Shown in pieces: positions 1,567 to 10,956 of a stretch of DNA of 23,382 nt. Both the position numbers and the translations under genes were made by a program. How positions within the stretch are numbered: the first letter of the stretch is position 1; each line of letters begins with the position of its first letter. The DNA is from a virus: IMG/VR virus record IMGVR_UViG_3300009507_001408, positions 1-23,382 of that record; one strand, written 5' to 3'. The notes beneath the pieces were generated by a model. It was not told the DNA's origin. It worked only from the letters and a program-made list of their open reading frames with translations, and did no database searches.

Positions 1567-2730
1567 ATGAAAGATAGAGTAGTTGTTACTGGTGTAGGTT
1601 TGGTGGACACCCTTGGAACATATCCGATGGAGTGTTTTGAGAATATGATTGATGATCATTATGAACCACCTATTGACTTTGAGACTGACGTAGAATCCCT
1701 TAAAGGGAATAAGTGTTTTAGAGCACGTGAAGTAAACTATGTGATTCCCGAGGGGATTTGTAAAACTACCCATGCTTCACTATCTACCGCATCTAAGAAT
1801 GCTATTCATGTTGTGCAACAGGCAATAGGTGACATTGACAGTACTGATGTTGCGGTGGTTTTCAGTTCGGTTGCTATTAAACAAGAGACTATGGCAAAAC
1901 CTTTCCTTGATAAGATGATAGGTGGCAGACGTTTGTCCCCCCGCAGTGGAGTGCAGTACCTAAAAGACTTTACTGTAGGAATGCTCAGTCAAGTGTTTGA
2001 TTTCCGTGGTGCGTGTGTCAGTATGGATGCCGCCTGTGCGACTGGTCTGTATTCTATTGACTACGGGATGCATTTACTAGATACCCATAAGTTTGTTGTT
2101 GTGGGTGGTACTGATAGTCCCGCAGTAGATGACAACATGTTTATCTTCAGTCAGTTGGGTGCACTTGGTACCGAGTCAAGACCCTTTGATAAGAAACGTG
2201 ATGGGTTCATTATGGGTGAGGGTGCAGGTGCCATGTTATTAGAGAAAGAGTCTGATGCACGAGCACGAGGTGCCAACATCATTGGATACATCAACACCGT
2301 ATCTCATCATACGGATGGAGCACTTGGTAAACCTACTGCACCAGACCCTAACTGTACAGGATCACTTGCGGCAATGCGATCCGTAACAAATGATTCTGCG
2401 GGAGAAATTGCCTTTGTAAATGCTCATGGCACATCAACTCCATTGGGAGATGACCTAGAGTATAATGCAATTCAACAAGTTGTGCCTAGTGTACCCGTGA
2501 TTAGTTTCAAGTCAAAGGTGGGACACTCTCTCGCGGCAAGTGGTATCAACGAAACAATCTATAGTTTGATGTGTCTTTACAACGGAGTGGTACCGAAGAA
2601 CTTCAATATAGATGACTGTGATCACGAATTTGTCTATAAATACAAGAAACAGGTTAAAGATAAGTTTGCGATGAAGAATTCATTTGCCTTTGGAGGCAGG
2701 TCTTCTTCATTGATATTGGAGGTGGAATGA
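1567..2730 (+). CDS. Beta-ketoacyl-ACP synthase (KAS I/II, FabB/FabF-like)
   Basis: A 387-residue condensing enzyme of the thiolase fold, which extends acyl-ACP with malonyl-ACP in fatty-acid synthesis. All catalytic residues of the family are present: nucleophile C157 in MDAACATG, H287 in NAHGTSTPLGD, K315 and H320 in FKSKVGHSLAASG, and the C-terminal NSFAFGGRSSS loop. N-terminal VVVTGVGLVDTLG matches the family start. Length is slightly under bacterial FabF (about 410). It begins two bases after the DUF3310 stop and overlaps the desaturase by 4 bases (ATGA), so the two are probably translated together. No acyl carrier protein is visible here, so it would have to use host ACP. A complete KAS in a phage is unusual; a role in polyketide-type chemistry cannot be excluded. 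Confidence 0.9.
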   Translation: MKDRVVVTGVGLVDTLGTYPMECFENMIDDHYEPPIDFETDVESLKGNKCFRAREVNYVIPEGICKTTHASLSTASKNAIHVVQQAIGDIDSTDVAVVFSSVAIKQETMAKPFLDKMIGGRRLSPRSGVQYLKDFTVGMLSQVFDFRGACVSMDAACATGLYSIDYGMHLLDTHKFVVVGGTDSPAVDDNMFIFSQLGALGTESRPFDKKRDGFIMGEGAGAMLLEKESDARARGANIIGYINTVSHHTDGALGKPTAPDPNCTGSLAAMRSVTNDSAGEIAFVNAHGTSTPLGDDLEYNAIQQVVPSVPVISFKSKVGHSLAASGINETIYSLMCLYNGVVPKNFNIDDCDHEFVYKYKKQVKDKFAMKNSFAFGGRSSSLILEVE

Positions 2731-3443
2731 TAACAAATTGGATAGGTAAAAGAACTGGATACGTGCATACGACATTCTATATGTTGTGTGTACTTCTTGC
2801 TATTGTATGGTTGCCATCATACTCTATTATAGAGTTGTCAGTCTGGTTTGTGCCTTTCTATTTACTCGCGGCATATTTAATCTCAGGATTCCAACATAGG
2901 TATTGTTCACATAAGTCTTGGCAACCAAGTCTTAGAGTTGAATCTATTAGTGCGTTTCTTTGTGCCGCATTCTTATTGACACCATCTATGGGGTGGGCAT
3001 CTACTCATAGGACTCATCATAAACACACTGATACCGATAAAGACCCACATGGGAATGCTCATAGTATTCTACGTAACTTCTTAGTATTCAATTACCCACC
3101 CAAGATGACTCTGATTCCTAGATGGATGCTTAGACATCCTGTCTATCAACTCCAAGCAAAGTACTACTGGGAGACGGGTATTGTGGTAGGTGCATTGATG
3201 TTCTTGGTAGGATTAGGAACCGCATGGGTGTCATTCATTGCATTCTGTTATATCTTCCAAGTCACTTTGAATATGATCGGTCATCTGAATAGGAATCCAG
3301 TGAACAATACTATAGGTGCGATAATGTGGGGAGGTGAGTTATATCATAAGAACCACCATGACAAACCTAGTCTATCGCAGTTTGGTTTATTTGACGCAAC
3401 ATACCACTTTTTTATTAAACACTTAGATACTAGAGGTAAATGA
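2727..3443 (+). CDS. Membrane fatty-acid (acyl-CoA/acyl-lipid) desaturase
   Basis: A 238-residue integral membrane protein with the three histidine boxes of the stearoyl-CoA/DesC-type desaturases that bind the di-iron centre: HRYCSH (57-62), HRTHH (94-98) and HKNHH (207-211). There are hydrophobic segments near 15-30, 36-55, 72-88 and 150-182. The NMIGHLNRNPVNN stretch before the third box is also typical. It is shorter than most bacterial homologues (about 270-320), mainly at the N-terminus, but keeps all metal ligands. Desaturases need electrons from a ferredoxin or cytochrome b5; none is encoded nearby. The ATGA overlap with the ketosynthase implies a joint role in changing the host's membrane acyl chains (inference). 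Confidence 0.9.
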   Translation: MITNWIGKRTGYVHTTFYMLCVLLAIVWLPSYSIIELSVWFVPFYLLAAYLISGFQHRYCSHKSWQPSLRVESISAFLCAAFLLTPSMGWASTHRTHHKHTDTDKDPHGNAHSILRNFLVFNYPPKMTLIPRWMLRHPVYQLQAKYYWETGIVVGALMFLVGLGTAWVSFIAFCYIFQVTLNMIGHLNRNPVNNTIGAIMWGGELYHKNHHDKPSLSQFGLFDATYHFFIKHLDTRGK

Positions 3444-4381: not shown

Positions 4382-4552
4382 ATGCAAAAGGCAAAGAGAA
4401 TAAAGTCTCGTCATGCACGAGTACTGTTTGATAAGGACAGTCCTTTTACCCACAAAGTGGTACCAGACAAGACGAAATACAAAAGAAAATCCAAATATCC
4501 TCGCAATCGCGGGGATTTTTTTTACCTTTTAGAAGTCAATCTGTATAAATAA
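4382..4552 (+). CDS. Small basic protein, 56 residues, terminator inside the gene
   Basis: Starts MQKAKRIKSRHARVLFDKDS and is strongly basic through KTKYKRKSKYPRNRG. AGGAG (4371-4375) lies six bases before the ATG. The last third of the frame is formed by an intrinsic terminator (4498-4523) whose T-run encodes the FF of DFFYLLEVNLYK. The gene could therefore be only partly transcribed past its own end, or the real product may be shorter in other strains. Possibly a small nucleic-acid-binding protein from its charge; that is inference. Confidence 0.5.
   Translation: MQKAKRIKSRHARVLFDKDSPFTHKVVPDKTKYKRKSKYPRNRGDFFYLLEVNLYK
4498..4523 (+). terminator. Rho-independent terminator
   Basis: A 7-bp stem (TCCTCGC with GCGGGGA, one G-T pair, four-base loop) followed by eight T residues at 4516-4523. 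It separates the sigma70-driven small genes from the envelope gene chain that starts at 4559. Confidence 0.85.
4544..4551 (+). promoter_or_regulatory. Possible T4-type late promoter for the curli/cyclase gene chain
   Basis: TATAAATA between the terminator and ATG 4559. No sigma70 -35/-10 pair is visible in this gap, so it is the best candidate for driving 4559-10385. T4 spacing would place the start around 4557, giving a nearly leaderless transcript for the first gene, which is odd and lowers confidence. Confidence 0.4.
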
Positions 4553-4558
4553 AGGTGT

Positions 4559-4837
4559 ATGGATATATTCACCCTAATAAACGAATTGGGGTTTCCTATC
4601 GCATCCGCCTTAATCGGTGGTTTCTTTATGTTTCTGACACTGAAATATATCATGGATGGCGTAATCGGGCAAGTGAAGTCGTTACGAGGTATAGTGGGAA
4701 GTCTTGATAATCGTGTAAAAACTATGAACCATGATATGGTTCGTATGGATACTACTATGTGTGTTGTTCTGGGAATAAGACCAGACCTCAATCGTATTAG
4801 TAGAGCAGACGGTAAAGAAGATGCAAGGAGAGATTGA
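4559..4837 (+). CDS. Small membrane protein, holin-like layout, paralogue of the one at 5315
   Basis: 92 residues: a short N-terminus, one hydrophobic helix at about 11-30 (GFPIASALIGGFFMFLTLKYI), then a soluble helical tail with SLDNRVKTMNHDMVRMD. The same plan and motif order (FGFPI..A, then a heptad-like D.R...ND..R) recur in the protein at 5315, so the pair looks like diverged duplicates. The layout resembles small phage membrane proteins of the BhlA/UviB type, some of which act as holins, but similarity is in architecture only. AAGG lies just upstream of ATG 4559. It heads the gene chain that leads into csgF and csgG. Confidence 0.6.
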   Translation: MDIFTLINELGFPIASALIGGFFMFLTLKYIMDGVIGQVKSLRGIVGSLDNRVKTMNHDMVRMDTTMCVVLGIRPDLNRISRADGKEDARRD

Positions 4838-5313
4838 TGGTTGACCCCTTTACGGCAGTAGCAACAGCAACTGCGGCATTCAATGGTATCAAGAAAATGG
4901 TTGAGGCAGGACAGAATATAGAGTCCACCTTCGGTCAGATTGGTAAGTGGTACGGAGCAGTTGCTGACTTCAATGAGGCAAAGAGACAAGCAGAGAACCC
5001 ACCACTTTTTAAGAAATTGGTAAACAAGACTTCGGTTGAAGAGGAGGCAATGAATGCCTTCATTCAAGAGAAGAAGATAAAAGAACAAGAAACACAATTG
5101 CGTGAACTGTTACTTTACATGTACGGACCTAGTGCGTACAGTGAGTTGACTCAAATGCGTAGAGAGATAAGGGACAAACGAGAGCAGACGGTATACGCAC
5201 AAGCACGTAGACAGAAAGCATTCTTTTGGAATGCACTCGGTTGGAGTTCCGTAGTAGTTCTTGCCTATGGATTCTGGTATATGGTGATGCTAATTGTAAA
5301 CGCAAGTCAGTGA
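4837..5313 (+). CDS. Tail-anchored helical membrane protein, probably a phage structural or envelope protein
   Basis: 158 residues starting at ATG 4837 (AAGGAG at 4825-4830), overlapping the previous stop by one base. The N-terminus MVDPFTAVATATAAFNGIKK is a glycine/alanine-rich helix; the middle (residues about 40-130) is charged and coiled-coil-like, with VEEEAMNAFIQEKKIKEQE and MYGPSAYSELTQMRREIR. A C-terminal transmembrane helix at about 132-154 (NALGWSSVVVLAYGFWYMVM) anchors it. I recall similar unnamed proteins in marine T4-like phages but cannot name a function. Placed between the two paralogous small membrane proteins, it may form a complex with them (inference). Confidence 0.6.
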   Translation: MVDPFTAVATATAAFNGIKKMVEAGQNIESTFGQIGKWYGAVADFNEAKRQAENPPLFKKLVNKTSVEEEAMNAFIQEKKIKEQETQLRELLLYMYGPSAYSELTQMRREIRDKREQTVYAQARRQKAFFWNALGWSSVVVLAYGFWYMVMLIVNASQ

Positions 5314-5314
5314 T

Positions 5315-5563
5315 GTGGAAATAGTAGACACGGTAAAAGATTTTGGTTTTCCTATAGTTGCGGCAGTTGGTATGTTGTACATGATTTACTTCGTCTGGAA
5401 AACAATTACCAGTGAAGTGGAAAAGAATCTAGAAGAAACGATGACCACCCTAATAGGACTAATTGACCGCATTAGAATGCTTGATAATGATATAATACGA
5501 TTGCAACAGAAATTAGATACTGCAATTGAAATGAGGAGAAAAAAAGATGAAGAAGAGACATAG
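5315..5563 (+). CDS. Small membrane protein, paralogue of the one at 4559
   Basis: 82 residues from GTG 5315, one base after the previous stop codon. A hydrophobic helix at about 11-29 (FGFPIVAAVGMLYMIYFVWK) is followed by a coiled-coil-like tail (IDRIRMLDNDIIRLQQKLD) ending in basic and acidic clusters. It shares its plan with the 4559 protein. Possible holin or inner-membrane scaffold; not proven. The end overlaps the csgF gene by 17 bases, which couples it to the curli genes. Confidence 0.6.
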   Translation: MEIVDTVKDFGFPIVAAVGMLYMIYFVWKTITSEVEKNLEETMTTLIGLIDRIRMLDNDIIRLQQKLDTAIEMRRKKDEEET

Positions 5564-6032
5564 TTGGATACAACTCCTTGAGGGTATGTCACTGACAGTT
5601 GCGATGATTATGATGTTACTCGTAATCACAGAACTATCATTTGCCGCACCCATAGAGCACAAATTCAAATCCCCTTCCTTCAGTGGTATTAATCAATCTA
5701 GTCACTATCTTACCATTGAGAATCAAGAGACCTCTCGGAAAGACGCGATCAAACAAGAATTGAAAGACCTCCAAGAACAATTGGAGAGGGATGCCGAGAA
5801 CACGACTCTGGCAAAGTTTATTAGGAATGTTGAAAGTAGAATTTATTCTACATTGTCCAGACAAATAGTAGATGGTATGTTTGGAGAGAATCCTTCTACT
5901 ACTGGTGAGTTCAACATAGAAGGAACGGGTATATCGTATGTCACTGATGGTGATGTTGTGATATTGACAATTACAGACGAGGATGGCAGTGTTACGACTA
6001 TTACTATTCCCCTTGGTGATTTTGGTATCTAG
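5547..6032 (+). CDS. csgF: CsgF-like curli secretion accessory protein
   Basis: 161 residues. A long N-terminal hydrophobic segment (11-32) ends in ELSFA, a good signal-peptidase site after A33, so the mature protein begins APIEHKFKSPSFSG. This matches the start of mature CsgF (F.F.NP.FGG in E. coli), the segment that threads into the CsgG barrel. The C-terminal region (DGDVVILTITDEDGSVTTITI) matches CsgF's final beta hairpin (ITD..TG..ttI.v). Mature length of about 128 is close to E. coli CsgF (119). AGGAG at 5534-5538 precedes ATG 5547. It overlaps csgG by 44 bases, as expected for partners. Family assigned by reading the sequence, not by search. Confidence 0.8.
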   Translation: MKKRHSWIQLLEGMSLTVAMIMMLLVITELSFAAPIEHKFKSPSFSGINQSSHYLTIENQETSRKDAIKQELKDLQEQLERDAENTTLAKFIRNVESRIYSTLSRQIVDGMFGENPSTTGEFNIEGTGISYVTDGDVVILTITDEDGSVTTITIPLGDFGI

Positions 6033-6789
6033 TTGTGCTTCTCTTGGAGGAGGGGACTTTGAGATACCAACAGTGGAACAACCAGAAGTTCAGTACACTC
6101 TACTACAAGAGGAACTGGTAAATGTGGGTGTACCTGCTAGGAGACCTACGGTTGCGGTCTACCAGTTCACTGATCAGACGGGGCAGAAGAGACAAAACAG
6201 TGGGGGTGGGACTTCCTTTAGTTCTGCGGTCACTCTGGCACCAGATGTATATCTGATTCGTGCCTTGACTCGTGCGGGTAGTGGAAAATTCTTTAAGGTT
6301 GTGGATCGTCAGATTCTTGACCATCTGACGAAAGAACGACAGTTAATACGTCAAACTCGTCAATCTTATGAGGGAAATGACTCTCAGAAGTTACCAGCGC
6401 TAACATTTGCTGGCATGATAATTGCAGGAGGTATAGTAGGATACGATACTTCCGTTGACACGGGTGGTGCGGGTGCCAGATATCTTGGCATAGGTACTTC
6501 TCGTGAATTTAGTATAGACACAGTTACAATCAATATACGATTGGTGTCAGTTGCTACAGGTGAGGTATTGTTGGATGTAATTTCCTCCAAGACCATACTC
6601 TCTACAGGAACAAGTGGAGATGTGTTTAGATTTATAGAACAGGGTACCGAACTGATAGAGATTGAGTCAGGTGTTACCCAAAACGAATCTGTATCTATTG
6701 CGACTCAACGTGCAATTGAGGCAGGTGTTCTAGAACTTATCTTGAGAGGAGATCAACGAGGGTTTTGGAATATAACGGGAGAGAAGTAA
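5989..6789 (+). CDS. csgG: CsgG-family outer-membrane secretion pore (lipoprotein)
   Basis: 266 residues. A lipoprotein signal peptide ends ILVSSC with C16 as the lipidated cysteine. GTG 5989 is preferred because GAGG (5979-5982) lies six bases upstream; ATG 5983 directly abuts it. CsgG features are clear: VAVYQFTDQTGQ, the GGIVGYDTSVDTGGAGARYL block with IGTSREFSID, INIRLVSVATGEVL, SKTILS, VFRFIEQG, and RGFWNI near the C-terminus, all aligning with E. coli CsgG. CsgG forms a nonameric outer-membrane channel exporting curli subunits. In the constriction loop (QKRQNSGGGTSFSSA) the Phe is kept (F77) but the E. coli Tyr51 and Asn55 positions are changed and the loop is about two residues longer. 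The pore may thus differ in selectivity. Confidence 0.93.
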   Translation: MLRLLLFPLVILVSSCASLGGGDFEIPTVEQPEVQYTLLQEELVNVGVPARRPTVAVYQFTDQTGQKRQNSGGGTSFSSAVTLAPDVYLIRALTRAGSGKFFKVVDRQILDHLTKERQLIRQTRQSYEGNDSQKLPALTFAGMIIAGGIVGYDTSVDTGGAGARYLGIGTSREFSIDTVTINIRLVSVATGEVLLDVISSKTILSTGTSGDVFRFIEQGTELIEIESGVTQNESVSIATQRAIEAGVLELILRGDQRGFWNITGEK

Positions 6790-7535
6790 TGAACGCTAGT
6801 AAAACAGGAAGTATCTTTGCTATGATGTTCGTGGTTGGTTCTGTGTATGTTTATGCAGACAATGAGATATATATTGACCAAGTAGGTAGTACCAGTGCTA
6901 TTGAAATAATTCAGGATGGTTCAGGAAACGTAGTTGGGGGTGATGAATCACAACTCGCTGCAGGCGCTCCATCTAAGTTTATACTGAATGGTAATAGCAT
7001 GGACTTTAATGTTAACATGTCCGGTAGCACTAACAAACTTTTTGGTTCAATATATGGAACTAGTACTGTTGATATTGACTTGGATGGATCAGGTAATAAT
7101 CTTGAGTTTGATGTTGACAAAGATAATACCTATGGTGCGACAGGGGGGAATTATCTGATATCAGTCACGGGTGGTAACAATGACTTAGATTTTGATTTTG
7201 GGTCAAATGATACCGCGAATGATACAGACTTTGACTTTATATTGGATGGTGATTTCAATGCCGCTGATATAAATATTGATGCGTCAAGTCTAACATTCAA
7301 CATGGATGTGATATCCGATAATAGCAATCTGGTGTATACTGGTACTGGGTATGACGGACATAGTTTTGATTTGGAAGGTTCAGGAAACTACTGGGACATT
7401 GATATAGTCCAAGAGTCTACTTTACAGTCTGACATTTTGGAGATTGATTATGAAGGATCAGGAACAAGTCAAGGTAATGCTACTATTTGTATTCACCAGT
7501 CTGATAGCGGCACCTCTAGTACATGCGGTCAGTAA
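6789..7535 (+). CDS. Secreted curlin-like, Asp/Gly/Asn-rich repeat protein
   Basis: 248 residues from ATG 6789, overlapping the csgG stop by one base (TAATG) with GGGAGAG upstream. A signal peptide (MNASKTGSIF... ending VYVYA) precedes repeated short units. The first units, IYIDQVGSTSAIEIIQDGSG, follow the curlin pattern of I.Q.G..N...Q; later units keep DGSGN/EGSGN (for example LDGSGNNLEFDV, LEGSGNYWDIDI) with many alternating Asp residues. This fits a beta-solenoid amyloid subunit like CsgA, though more acidic. The end has two cysteines (TICIHQSDSGTSSTCGQ). Right after csgF and csgG, it is the natural substrate of the pore. No CsgB, CsgE or CsgC is visible. Repeat protein is certain; curlin identity is likely but not certain. 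Confidence 0.75.
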   Translation: MNASKTGSIFAMMFVVGSVYVYADNEIYIDQVGSTSAIEIIQDGSGNVVGGDESQLAAGAPSKFILNGNSMDFNVNMSGSTNKLFGSIYGTSTVDIDLDGSGNNLEFDVDKDNTYGATGGNYLISVTGGNNDLDFDFGSNDTANDTDFDFILDGDFNAADINIDASSLTFNMDVISDNSNLVYTGTGYDGHSFDLEGSGNYWDIDIVQESTLQSDILEIDYEGSGTSQGNATICIHQSDSGTSSTCGQ

Positions 7536-8568
7536 TGACGTAGGTGCAGTGGATCGTGCAGTTGGATGGAGACAGATAGTAAGAGATGGGAAACCATTAG
7601 AACCAAGTAAAGGTGAACAAATCGTATCTGAAGATGACCTTCGTACAGGTGAGGGTCGCCTTCAGGTACAATTTGTTGATGACAGCAAACTACGTATGAC
7701 CGAACACACCCGCATTGTGATTGACAATGTGGTCTTTGACGAAGACCCAAGTAAGTCAGACTTGGCAATGACGTTCGCCCAAGGCACAGCAAGATTTGTA
7801 TCTGGACAACTGGGAAAGGTTGACCGAGAGAATATAAGACTCAAGACCCCTACCGCATCTATCGGTATCAGGGGTACAGATTTCACAGTAACAGTTGACG
7901 AATTTGGAAAGACCCTTGTGGTACTTCTACCAGATGTAAACGGTATCTCATCGGGTGAGATTATTGTTTCCACAATGACAGGGGAAGTGGTGCTCAATAA
8001 ACCCTTTGAATCTACAACGACTACTGTGATGGAGACACCCCCATCGGAACCCGCAATCCTAGACTTGACTCTGGATATGTTGAACAATATTATGATCATC
8101 AATCCTCCCAAGAAGAAACAAACTCCCGAAGAGTTTATGATTGAAATAAACGCAGATAAGAACATTAACTCATTAGATGTGGACTTCCTTGACGAAGACT
8201 TGTTGTCCGAAGAGGCACTGGAAAAAAACTATCTAGAGTTCAATGAACTTGATATGGACTACCTAGATGTTGATCTACTAGAGGATGTGTTGAATAGTTT
8301 TGATGCACTGGGAGAGGATGTACTGGAAGAACAACAGTCTAGTGGTGATTTACGTCTCAGTGGTACCGAAGAGGGGTTTGATCCTGTCACGCAGGTCGCG
8401 ACTATAATAGAGGGCGATAAGGTTACTATAGGCAGAGAGGTCAATGACAAAGTAAGAATATCGGTAGATAAGTCTTCTATGACAGTTATAAGTATAGAAC
8501 AAGACGGTAAAGAACTAGACCCCATCAAACTGAATGGTATGGACAACACGATAAATATAGTACAATGA
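7450..8568 (+). CDS. Secreted FecR-domain protein
   Basis: 372 residues. ATG 7450 is preferred (GGAG at 7439-7442, seven bases away) and gives a signal peptide MKDQEQVKVMLLFVFTSLIA ending PLVHA. The FecR domain follows at about 30-190: GWRQIVRDGKPL, GEQIVSEDDLRTGEGRLQVQ, SKLRMTEHTRIVID, MTFAQGTARFVSG, then the hallmark KTPTASIGIRGTDF and SGEIIVSTMTGEV. After a proline/lysine linker comes a Leu/Asp-rich acidic stretch (about 225-315) and a beta-rich end. FecR domains sense or relay signals in the periplasm. No transmembrane helix beyond the signal peptide is seen, so it is probably free in the periplasm, where it could meet the CHASE2 domain of the next protein (ATGA overlap). The start overlaps the curlin-like gene by 86 bases. 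Confidence 0.88.
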   Translation: MKDQEQVKVMLLFVFTSLIAAPLVHAVSNDVGAVDRAVGWRQIVRDGKPLEPSKGEQIVSEDDLRTGEGRLQVQFVDDSKLRMTEHTRIVIDNVVFDEDPSKSDLAMTFAQGTARFVSGQLGKVDRENIRLKTPTASIGIRGTDFTVTVDEFGKTLVVLLPDVNGISSGEIIVSTMTGEVVLNKPFESTTTTVMETPPSEPAILDLTLDMLNNIMIINPPKKKQTPEEFMIEINADKNINSLDVDFLDEDLLSEEALEKNYLEFNELDMDYLDVDLLEDVLNSFDALGEDVLEEQQSSGDLRLSGTEEGFDPVTQVATIIEGDKVTIGREVNDKVRISVDKSSMTVISIEQDGKELDPIKLNGMDNTINIVQ

Positions 8569-10385
8569 AAACATGGCATGTCCTCATCACACTGGGGTTG
8601 TTAGTAGGATTAAGATTTCTTGACCCCTTTCTATTAGAGAGTGCGCGACTCTCATTCTTTGATTCTCTACAGAGAAGTCAAGAGGCATCTGTGTCCGAAC
8701 AGATCGTACTGGTAGACATAGATGAGAAGACCCTAGACAAGTTTGGACAGTACCCCATCCCCCGTAAGGTTATGGCAGATGAGATTGACAAGATTGATGG
8801 CAGTATAATTGCATTCAATATCTTGTTCTCAGAAGAAGACAGGATGGGAGGTGACGAATACTTTGCAGAGATTCTATCATGGAAACAAGCAGTGGTTGCC
8901 ATCGCACCATCCAACAGAACCAACACAGACTACAGACCACCTCGTATCGGTACTGCGACATTCGGTGACAGAGATGCCGAAGATTTCCGACCATTAATGG
9001 GCGGTATGCTGTTTGCCCAACCGATCATCCATGACAATGCATTTGGTTATGGTACGATATCATCCGCACAGGATGTTGATGGTATTGTCAGAAGACAACC
9101 CCTACTAGAGAACTTTGATGGTAGACTCTATCCCGCATTTGCGTTAGATGTACTACGAGTTGCCGCAGGAGATTCATCTTACCAGATATCCACGGATGAC
9201 TATGGTATTGAATTCGTTCGTATCCCCAAGTTCAAACCAGTGCCTACAGATGCAGTCGGTAACGTTACAATCGCATACTGGAATGAGTTCAAGAGATACT
9301 CGTTCACGGAACTGGACACTATACCAGAAGGTTCAATAATCATCGTAGGAGCAACCTTTGAGGGTTCTAATGTAGTTAGTACACCAATGGGTTCTATGTA
9401 CCCCCATGACATTCAAGCAAACCTAGTCAAGACAATGATTGATGGAGTGGTACTCAAAAGACAGTCTGAATTTATTTTGTACGAGGTCTTGACAACTCTT
9501 GCACTGTGTGCTATACTCTTACTGTTGTTAACTCAGGGTACTATACCAATTTCAGGATTGGCATTTAGTGTCTTTGTGATGGGTCTATATGTCTTCGCAA
9601 CGGATACCTTTGCCACATATTACTTATTGTTTGACCCTGTGTTCCCTATACTGACTGTGGTGCTAGTATTCGCACACGGTTCCTTTGTACAGTTCTATAC
9701 ACAGTTCAAAGCAAAGCAGATGATCAAGGGACAGTTCGGTACATACCTTTCACCCGACATGGTAGATATGCTTGCCAATGATCCAAGTCTAATGAAGTTG
9801 GGTGGAGAGAAGAAGGAGATGACGTTCTTATTCATGGACATATGTGGATTCACCCCCATATCAGAACACTACAAAAACAAGGACGATGCAGAGGGTTTGG
9901 TCACATTAATTAACAATTATCTCAATGAAATGACTAATATTATCCTAAATAACGGAGGTACAATTGACAAGTATATGGGAGATTGTATCATGGCATTTTG
10001 GAATGCCCCCCTACCGTGTGAGGATCATGCGGAAATGGCAGTAAAATCCGCAATAGAGATAGAAGAGAAAACTAATGAACTTAGACGAAGATATAGTGAA
10101 CAGGGTCTACCCCCCATCAATGTTGGAACTGGCATCAATACAGGCACTTGCATTGTTGGTAATATGGGTAGTGAGTCAAGGTTTGATTATTCAGTCATCG
10201 GAGACTCCGTTAACCTTGCCGCAAGACTTGAAGCAACTGCCGCAAGAGGAGACTACCTTGAATACAAGACCATCTACTCAAGTCACACAATGGAACAACT
10301 TACAAACATTAAATCGCGACCAATAGGTACGATTAAGGTTAAGGGTAAAGATGAGGAAATTGACATCTACACGATGGATAGATGA
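8565..10385 (+). CDS. CHASE2-domain adenylate cyclase (class III, membrane receptor)
   Basis: 606 residues that would make cAMP in the host. An N-terminal membrane helix (5-20) is followed by a periplasmic CHASE2 sensor (about 25-300; VLVDIDEKTLDKFGQYPIPR, the DVDGIVRRQPLL block, and IIIVGATFEGSNVVSTPMG are typical). Three transmembrane helices follow (about 303-322, 328-345, 352-372), then a class III cyclase domain (about 415-600). Catalytic residues are intact: metal Asps D425 (LFMDICGFT) and D473, substrate-specifying K469 and D547, and transition-state N550 and R554 (IGDSVNLAARLE). The Lys/Asp pair points to ATP rather than GTP. It is the last gene of the envelope chain and overlaps the FecR gene by 4 bases. 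I know of no common phage counterpart; host acquisition is likely. Confidence 0.93.
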   Translation: MKTWHVLITLGLLVGLRFLDPFLLESARLSFFDSLQRSQEASVSEQIVLVDIDEKTLDKFGQYPIPRKVMADEIDKIDGSIIAFNILFSEEDRMGGDEYFAEILSWKQAVVAIAPSNRTNTDYRPPRIGTATFGDRDAEDFRPLMGGMLFAQPIIHDNAFGYGTISSAQDVDGIVRRQPLLENFDGRLYPAFALDVLRVAAGDSSYQISTDDYGIEFVRIPKFKPVPTDAVGNVTIAYWNEFKRYSFTELDTIPEGSIIIVGATFEGSNVVSTPMGSMYPHDIQANLVKTMIDGVVLKRQSEFILYEVLTTLALCAILLLLLTQGTIPISGLAFSVFVMGLYVFATDTFATYYLLFDPVFPILTVVLVFAHGSFVQFYTQFKAKQMIKGQFGTYLSPDMVDMLANDPSLMKLGGEKKEMTFLFMDICGFTPISEHYKNKDDAEGLVTLINNYLNEMTNIILNNGGTIDKYMGDCIMAFWNAPLPCEDHAEMAVKSAIEIEEKTNELRRRYSEQGLPPINVGTGINTGTCIVGNMGSESRFDYSVIGDSVNLAARLEATAARGDYLEYKTIYSSHTMEQLTNIKSRPIGTIKVKGKDEEIDIYTMDR

Positions 10386-10927: not shown

Positions 10928-10956
10928 TTGACGAAACCTGCGTGGGAGGTTATAAT
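10928..10956 (+). promoter_or_regulatory. Sigma70-type promoter
   Basis: TTGACG (10928-10933) and TATAAT (10951-10956) with a 17-base spacer. It drives the four small genes from 10990 to 11793. Its -10 and leader are repeated at 14703-14737. Confidence 0.85.

Follow-up and report, generated by a model that had tools for sequence, protein, structure and literature searches.

What does a secreted FecR protein, encoded in overlap with a membrane-bound adenylate cyclase, do for a bacteriophage? The question is raised by IMG/VR virus record IMGVR_UViG_3300009507_001408, a stretch of 23,382 bases with a GC content of about 42%, which is called the window here. The genes for a FecR-domain protein and a receptor cyclase with a CHASE2 sensor domain share 4 nt, the bases ATGA, and form the 3' end of an operon with the order small membrane proteins, CsgF, CsgG, curlin-like protein, FecR and cyclase. 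The best overall explanation, which we hold to be moderately probable, is that the pair serves as the sensing part of a curli operon that the phage owns and expresses late, with FecR read by the CHASE2 cyclase. FecR, whose predicted fold is similar to FecR/PupR signalling domains and has a weaker likeness to a surface-anchoring adhesin domain, would be exported to the periplasm and would report the state of curlin secretion, of the CsgG pore or of the outer membrane. FecR would be read by the CHASE2 domain of a receptor in the inner membrane, and a cytosolic domain of class IIIb type would make cyclic AMP (cAMP) late in infection. This explanation is built on the genes and their order, complete linkage, intact catalytic residues, a late promoter, a separate phage clade and purifying selection; contact of FecR with CHASE2, the signal sensed, cAMP as the product and the output are inferred.

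The gene set itself is already published. Wittmers et al. (2022) described curli genes with FecR and adenylate cyclase in pelagiphages, their spread and their expression in metatranscriptomes (PMC9599517), and CsgF and CsgG in phages were reported earlier (PMC7029224). A CHASE2 domain is not mentioned in PMC9599517, PMC7029224 or PMC9004378, where the matches shown for "chase" are an author name. New here are the CHASE2 type of sensor, the proposed control as a single late operon, a corrected active site, the evidence for a sensor pair and the apparent lack of a cAMP receptor in SAR11 and in the phages. The first-pass annotation, made from the DNA alone, had named both genes within 7450-10385, and their positions and domain matches, given below, agree with it.

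7450..8568, plus strand: FecR-domain protein, predicted periplasmic (PF04773, 6e-12; phrog_37870, 1.3e-59)
8565..10385, plus strand: CHASE2 receptor adenylate cyclase (PF05226, 1.6e-38; PF00211, 2.8e-19; phrog_35576, 8e-191)

Receptor cyclase

The receptor has the architecture of a CHASE2 receptor, with a transmembrane segment (residues 6-24), an extracytoplasmic CHASE2 domain (residues 10-320, PF05226), transmembrane helices and a cytosolic output domain, here the catalytic domain at residues 416-598 (PF00211). Hydrophobic segments are found at residues 6-24, 304-322 and 352-370 and the structure model places a helix at 327-352; helices span about 304-370.

The catalytic domain displays the residues of a class III cyclase: two metal-binding Asp, a Lys base selector and an Asn/Arg transition-state pair. 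D425, K469, D473, N550 and R554 are all present and are nearly invariant among 80 phage homologues. The first-pass annotation was correct in listing these five, but it also listed D547, a conserved residue that is outside the base-selecting position. Alignment with CyaB of P. aeruginosa, which has Thr there, identifies S543 as the second base-selecting position, and Ser or Thr is present at it in 78 of 80 phage sequences and in all 80 cellular relatives. Thr (or Ser) at this position is the rule in class IIIb, and S543 fits an adenylate cyclase of that class. K469 argues for ATP as the substrate; in the guanylate cyclase Cya2 the position is occupied by Glu. The earlier claim of an ATP-type, catalytically intact phage cyclase beneath a CHASE2 receptor is supported, and the cytosolic domain is predicted to make cAMP.

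The phage cyclases are under purifying selection. Pairwise ratios of nonsynonymous to synonymous substitution rates (dN/dS) between close relatives lie around 0.05-0.07 for the catalytic domain and around 0.1 for both the sensor and FecR, as obtained from pairs with measurable dS, some pairs being saturated and uninformative. In most pairs the strongest constraint is on the catalytic domain. The phage cyclases, two podophage copies included, form a separate clade: a branch with a support of 100 (SH-like approximate likelihood ratio test, SH-aLRT) divides them from 57 cellular relatives, in an unrooted tree whose cellular set consists of best matches only.

FecR protein and its proposed pairing with CHASE2

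Near its N-terminus FecR carries a hydrophobic stretch (residues 9-27, ending in PLVHA) that is read as a signal peptide, which would make the protein periplasmic. The FecR fold is within residues 28-213, approximately, and is followed by a small beta domain at about 300-372. In a structure model with a mean predicted local distance difference test (pLDDT) score of 74, residues 59-213 align with the cell-surface signalling domain of PupR (Z 14.8, 2.7 A, 135 residues). Residues 28-122 align with the surface-anchoring adhesin domain 5ix9 at a Z within the chance range (7.3; 2.5 A, 73 residues), and with so low a Z this likeness may represent just a common arrangement. Among solved structures, no convincing sequence match to the FecR profile was found. 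A profile of the C-terminal domain has zero matches in cellular open reading frames (ORFs), where the profile of the FecR part has 44 domain matches.

Two further properties are visible in FecR. An acidic segment at about 240-285 has Leu at every fifth residue (LDVDF LDEDL ...) and is seen in the phage alignment, and the phage proteins end in IxIxQ (residues 368-372). Homology of curlin and FecR by way of this terminal motif was rejected, as profile searches in both directions gave no match.

FecR had been proposed as the likely partner of the receptor, and the pair, when searched for elsewhere, is found well beyond this contig: in all 51 phage loci described below, and in 22 of the 56 cellular loci with full flanks, where FecR is at most 1.5 kb from the CHASE2 adenylate cyclase. 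In bacteria the output differs. Seven of 60 SAR11-family genomes own a CHASE2 protein, which is fused to a SpoIIE/PP2C phosphatase in 7/7 and has an adjacent FecR in 5/7; two further CHASE2 matches in these genomes, phage contigs L172 and L173, are left out of the seven. Clusters with FecR and CHASE2-adenylate cyclase are reported in Campylobacterota (PMC9239204), and a Burkholderia biofilm operon combines FecR/LysM with a CHASE2-histidine kinase (PMC5192318). That FecR accompanies CHASE2 across several outputs (adenylate cyclase, histidine kinase, PP2C) supports a sensor pair, and physical contact between the two proteins would be expected.

Some of the cellular clusters have additional components. 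The SAR11-family cluster consists of FecR, CHASE2-SpoIIE and a conserved, secreted-looking protein of ~435 amino acids (L175:4049-8916; similar in L184, L185, L187 and L189). In some marine Alphaproteobacteria the CHASE2-adenylate cyclase gene is part of a type I secretion operon; the locus L160:6021-21224 encodes HlyD fused to a cyclic nucleotide monophosphate (cNMP)-binding domain, an ABC exporter and the cyclase, with an RTX/FecR protein nearby. Small cNMP-binding proteins adjoin the cyclase of L160, and cNMP-binding matches of similar size are present in the genomes of L107, L120, L130 and L139. Clusters of the L160 type possibly represent a cAMP-gated type I secretion system.

Operon and expression signals

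The remaining genes of the module and the signals around it are listed below.

4497..4516, plus strand: terminator-like stem-loop with T-run (8 pairs, 5 of them GC, TTTTTTT tail), closing the preceding transcript
4544..4551, plus strand: T4-type late promoter TATAAATA, between the terminator-like hairpin and the first operon gene
4559..4837, plus strand: sm1, small membrane protein of 92 amino acids, one transmembrane segment (phrog_18771); heads the module in every locus checked
4834..5313, plus strand: sm2, 159 amino acids, C-terminal transmembrane segment (phrog_32327); present in few loci
5315..5563, plus strand: sm3, 82 amino acids, one transmembrane segment (phrog_18771); paralogue of sm1
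5547..6032, plus strand: CsgF (PF10614, 6e-17)
5983..6789, plus strand: CsgG, outer-membrane curli secretion pore (PF03783, 1.9e-45); N-terminal LVSSC read as a lipobox
6789..7535, plus strand: curlin-like secreted repeat protein in the CsgA/B position; copies in HTVC008M and Melnitz are annotated as curlin-associated
10928..10956, plus strand: sigma70-like promoter TTGACG-17-TATAAT, 3' of the operon and before the next transcription unit; consensus match only

The curlin-like protein has no match in the Pfam scan, and its identity is taken from its position and from local similarity to the annotated copies. The sequence TATAAATA occurs 6 times on the plus strand of the window, where 0.9 are expected. 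It is found before sm1 in 39 of 52 loci, before the genes from sm3 to FecR in 0/271 cases and before the cyclase in 4/77, where the background is 0.026 per 165 nt; the loci are related and the counts are therefore not independent. That the sites within a locus differ so strongly nevertheless suggests a single late operon. Control by a late sigma-type factor would follow from the biology of T4.

Distribution and linkage in phages

The module is frequent in marine Kyanoviridae-like phages, with at least 598 confirmed stretches in a scan of IMG/VR. The first-pass statement that a membrane cyclase receptor is unusual for phages is not borne out by this number, nor by the FecR and adenylate cyclase clusters published in 2022. 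The same gene order is found in Pelagibacter phage HTVC008M, in Methylophilales phage Melnitz and in independent IMG/VR contigs. Linkage was counted in 51 loci whose sequence extends 4.9 kb or more 5' of the cyclase. In this region sm1, sm3, CsgF, CsgG and FecR are present in 51/51; the curlin-like gene is present in 50, and the order is shared by 50. The earlier proposal of a functional link with the curli module is supported.

In most loci of the subgroup to which the window belongs, the FecR gene directly adjoins that of the cyclase or comes close to doing so. Loci outside this subgroup have an extra stretch between the two, usually of 0.7-1.7 kb, which in Melnitz is annotated as a curlin repeat protein. 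Phage contigs L172 and L173, both with the curli-FecR-adenylate cyclase module, have been binned into SAR11-family genomes G447 and G411.

Points against the explanation and the apparent lack of a cAMP receptor

Several results weigh against a FecR-CHASE2 sensor that raises cAMP for a curli system. In most loci another ORF is present between FecR and the cyclase, and csgG or csgF is found in none of the 80 cellular CHASE2-adenylate cyclase loci. Melnitz caused no clumping (Buchholz et al., PMC9004378). The cyclase of Melnitz, a phage of OM43 (L083, positions 6971-9019), has the motif HSYDVLGDSVSTAARIE, with the transition-state Asn (N550 here) replaced by Ser and the base-selecting Ser by Asp; its activity may differ, and cyclase activity is perhaps not universal in the module. 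A cNMP-binding domain (PF00027) is not found in 15 further phage records, of which three were deposited as complete genomes, nor in 58 of the 60 SAR11-family genomes (the family of G317), the other two being positive.

The contig likewise has no PF00027 match at E up to 1. By comparison, PF00027 is present in 9/9 of the genomes checked that own a cellular CHASE2-adenylate cyclase. None of the 60 SAR11-family genomes owns a class III cyclase; both cyclase matches are on phage contigs, L172 and L173. These searches cover canonical PF00027 receptors only, in genomes that may be incomplete. We take G317 and G228 to be SAR11, as the four SAR11 16S probe sites are all present in both. The SAR11 loci read have 28-31% GC, well below that of the contig, and the missing-receptor problem is demonstrated for SAR11, not for the analysed phage's own host.

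With no canonical cNMP-binding receptor in the phages or in most SAR11-family genomes, cAMP is there without an evident receptor. The first-pass prediction that the phage raises host cAMP, taken as signalling to the host, is for this reason doubtful as stated. A tentative alternative, put forward with considerable reserve, is that cells lacking both a class III cyclase and a canonical cNMP receptor are supplied with a cAMP-making enzyme by SAR11 phages. The pathway would then be self-contained or non-canonical, with another receptor or with cAMP acting on the secretion apparatus, and would be controlled late in infection by the state of the envelope or of the curli system. The missing receptor in most SAR11-family genomes moves the statement that a phage raises host cAMP from an assumption to a question for which HTVC008M and HTCC1062 offer a test system.

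Alternative explanations

The module could instead set the time of lysis, with CsgG as a pore and FecR-CHASE2-cyclase linking the state of the envelope to lysis rather than to fibres. A lysis role has been proposed for CsgGF of Melnitz (PMC9004378), and the late promoter and the small one-segment proteins sm1 and sm3 would suit it, as would podophage contig L173, where Rz/Rz1-like spanins, endolysin and terminase are encoded a short distance 3' of the cyclase. We consider this rather unlikely: the curlin-like gene is retained in 50/51 loci, the module does not adjoin annotated lysis genes in the myophages checked, and a Pfam search of sm1 and sm3 down to weak matches (E up to 1) gave no credible one, so that a holin identity was rejected. 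It is less likely again that the cyclase has ceased to be a host-signalling enzyme and is inactive, or serves the curli complex as a structural or transport partner. The absence of a canonical receptor and the loss of the transition-state Asn in Melnitz would both fit this, but the catalytic residues are otherwise conserved in ~80 sequences and it is the catalytic domain that is most constrained in most pairs.

FecR was proposed in PMC9599517 as a regulator of iron(citrate) type for the curli genes, in agreement with its Pfam family. This is very improbable here. No anti-sigma domain is present N-terminal to the hydrophobic stretch, which starts at residue 9, no sigma factor (FecI) or TonB receptor was found among the window proteins that were scanned, and FecR adjoins CHASE2 receptors in many bacteria; we take FecR in this case not to be an anti-sigma or iron regulator. 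An anti-defence or Pycsar-like cyclase has even less in its favour. PADLOC models of PycC match the cyclase domain, but only over the shared catalytic fold; no cNMP-binding effector of PycTM type is found in the contig, and a CHASE2 membrane receptor and constant curli linkage do not conform to such a system. Pycsar membership was rejected. Finally, the chance that the locus is a host fragment or a misassembly, which the first-pass annotation had named as a concern, is negligible: cellular relatives exist, but the recurrent order in independent contigs (50/51, with CsgF, CsgG and FecR in 51/51), two cultured phage genomes and the phage-only clade show the contig to be genuine.

A sensor end of a late curli operon is the favoured explanation. 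A late operon, together with the pairing of FecR and CHASE2 across outputs, gives both genes a concrete and testable role. A transmembrane envelope sensor with a second-messenger enzyme, owned by the phage, is hardly studied at the bench, yet it is frequent in ocean phages.

Other features of the contig

Genes for a beta-ketoacyl synthase and a fatty-acid desaturase are present at 1567-3443, 5' of the curli module. fabF and desaturase are listed as unique to freshwater fonsimyophages, which are without curli (PMC7029224); unlike these, the analysed contig has both fabF/desaturase genes of this type and curli genes. Two other window proteins have Phage C48C1 as their nearest record, with 64-73% identity. 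An Rfam scan of the window shows no riboswitch and no other RNA family; a riboswitch is reported in Melnitz.

Comparison with known systems

The gene set and order are those of the type VIII secretion module of Wittmers et al., for which HTVC008M is a common example: CsgF, CsgG, CsgA/B, FecR, often a second curlin, and adenylate cyclase. The contig differs in that the second curlin is absent, and FecR overlaps the cyclase because of this absence. Where these authors have a "histidine kinase" 5' of CsgF, there are here three proteins of 82-159 amino acids, in which domain scans found no kinase domain.

The best solved relative of the cyclase by sequence is the catalytic domain of P. aeruginosa CyaB (PDB 3r5g, 1.2e-36), with the same Lys and with Thr in place of Ser at the second base-selecting position. 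CHASE2 cyclases of S. meliloti raise cAMP on a protein signal that is sensed through an outer-membrane barrel (PMC13001267). CyaD1, CyaD2 and CyaK of Sinorhizobium, with NsrA, are thus likewise CHASE2 cyclases that answer a signal sensed at the outer membrane; they are bacterial and act through Clr, a CRP-family protein, whose counterpart was not found here (PMC13001267). The bacterial FecR-CHASE2 pairs are without curli genes (0/80 loci), unlike the phage module; their FecR domain often belongs to a long protein of adhesin-like or RTX type, and their outputs are adenylate cyclase, histidine kinase and, in SAR11, SpoIIE/PP2C. As in the phages, a secreted FecR protein is encoded beside a CHASE2 receptor.

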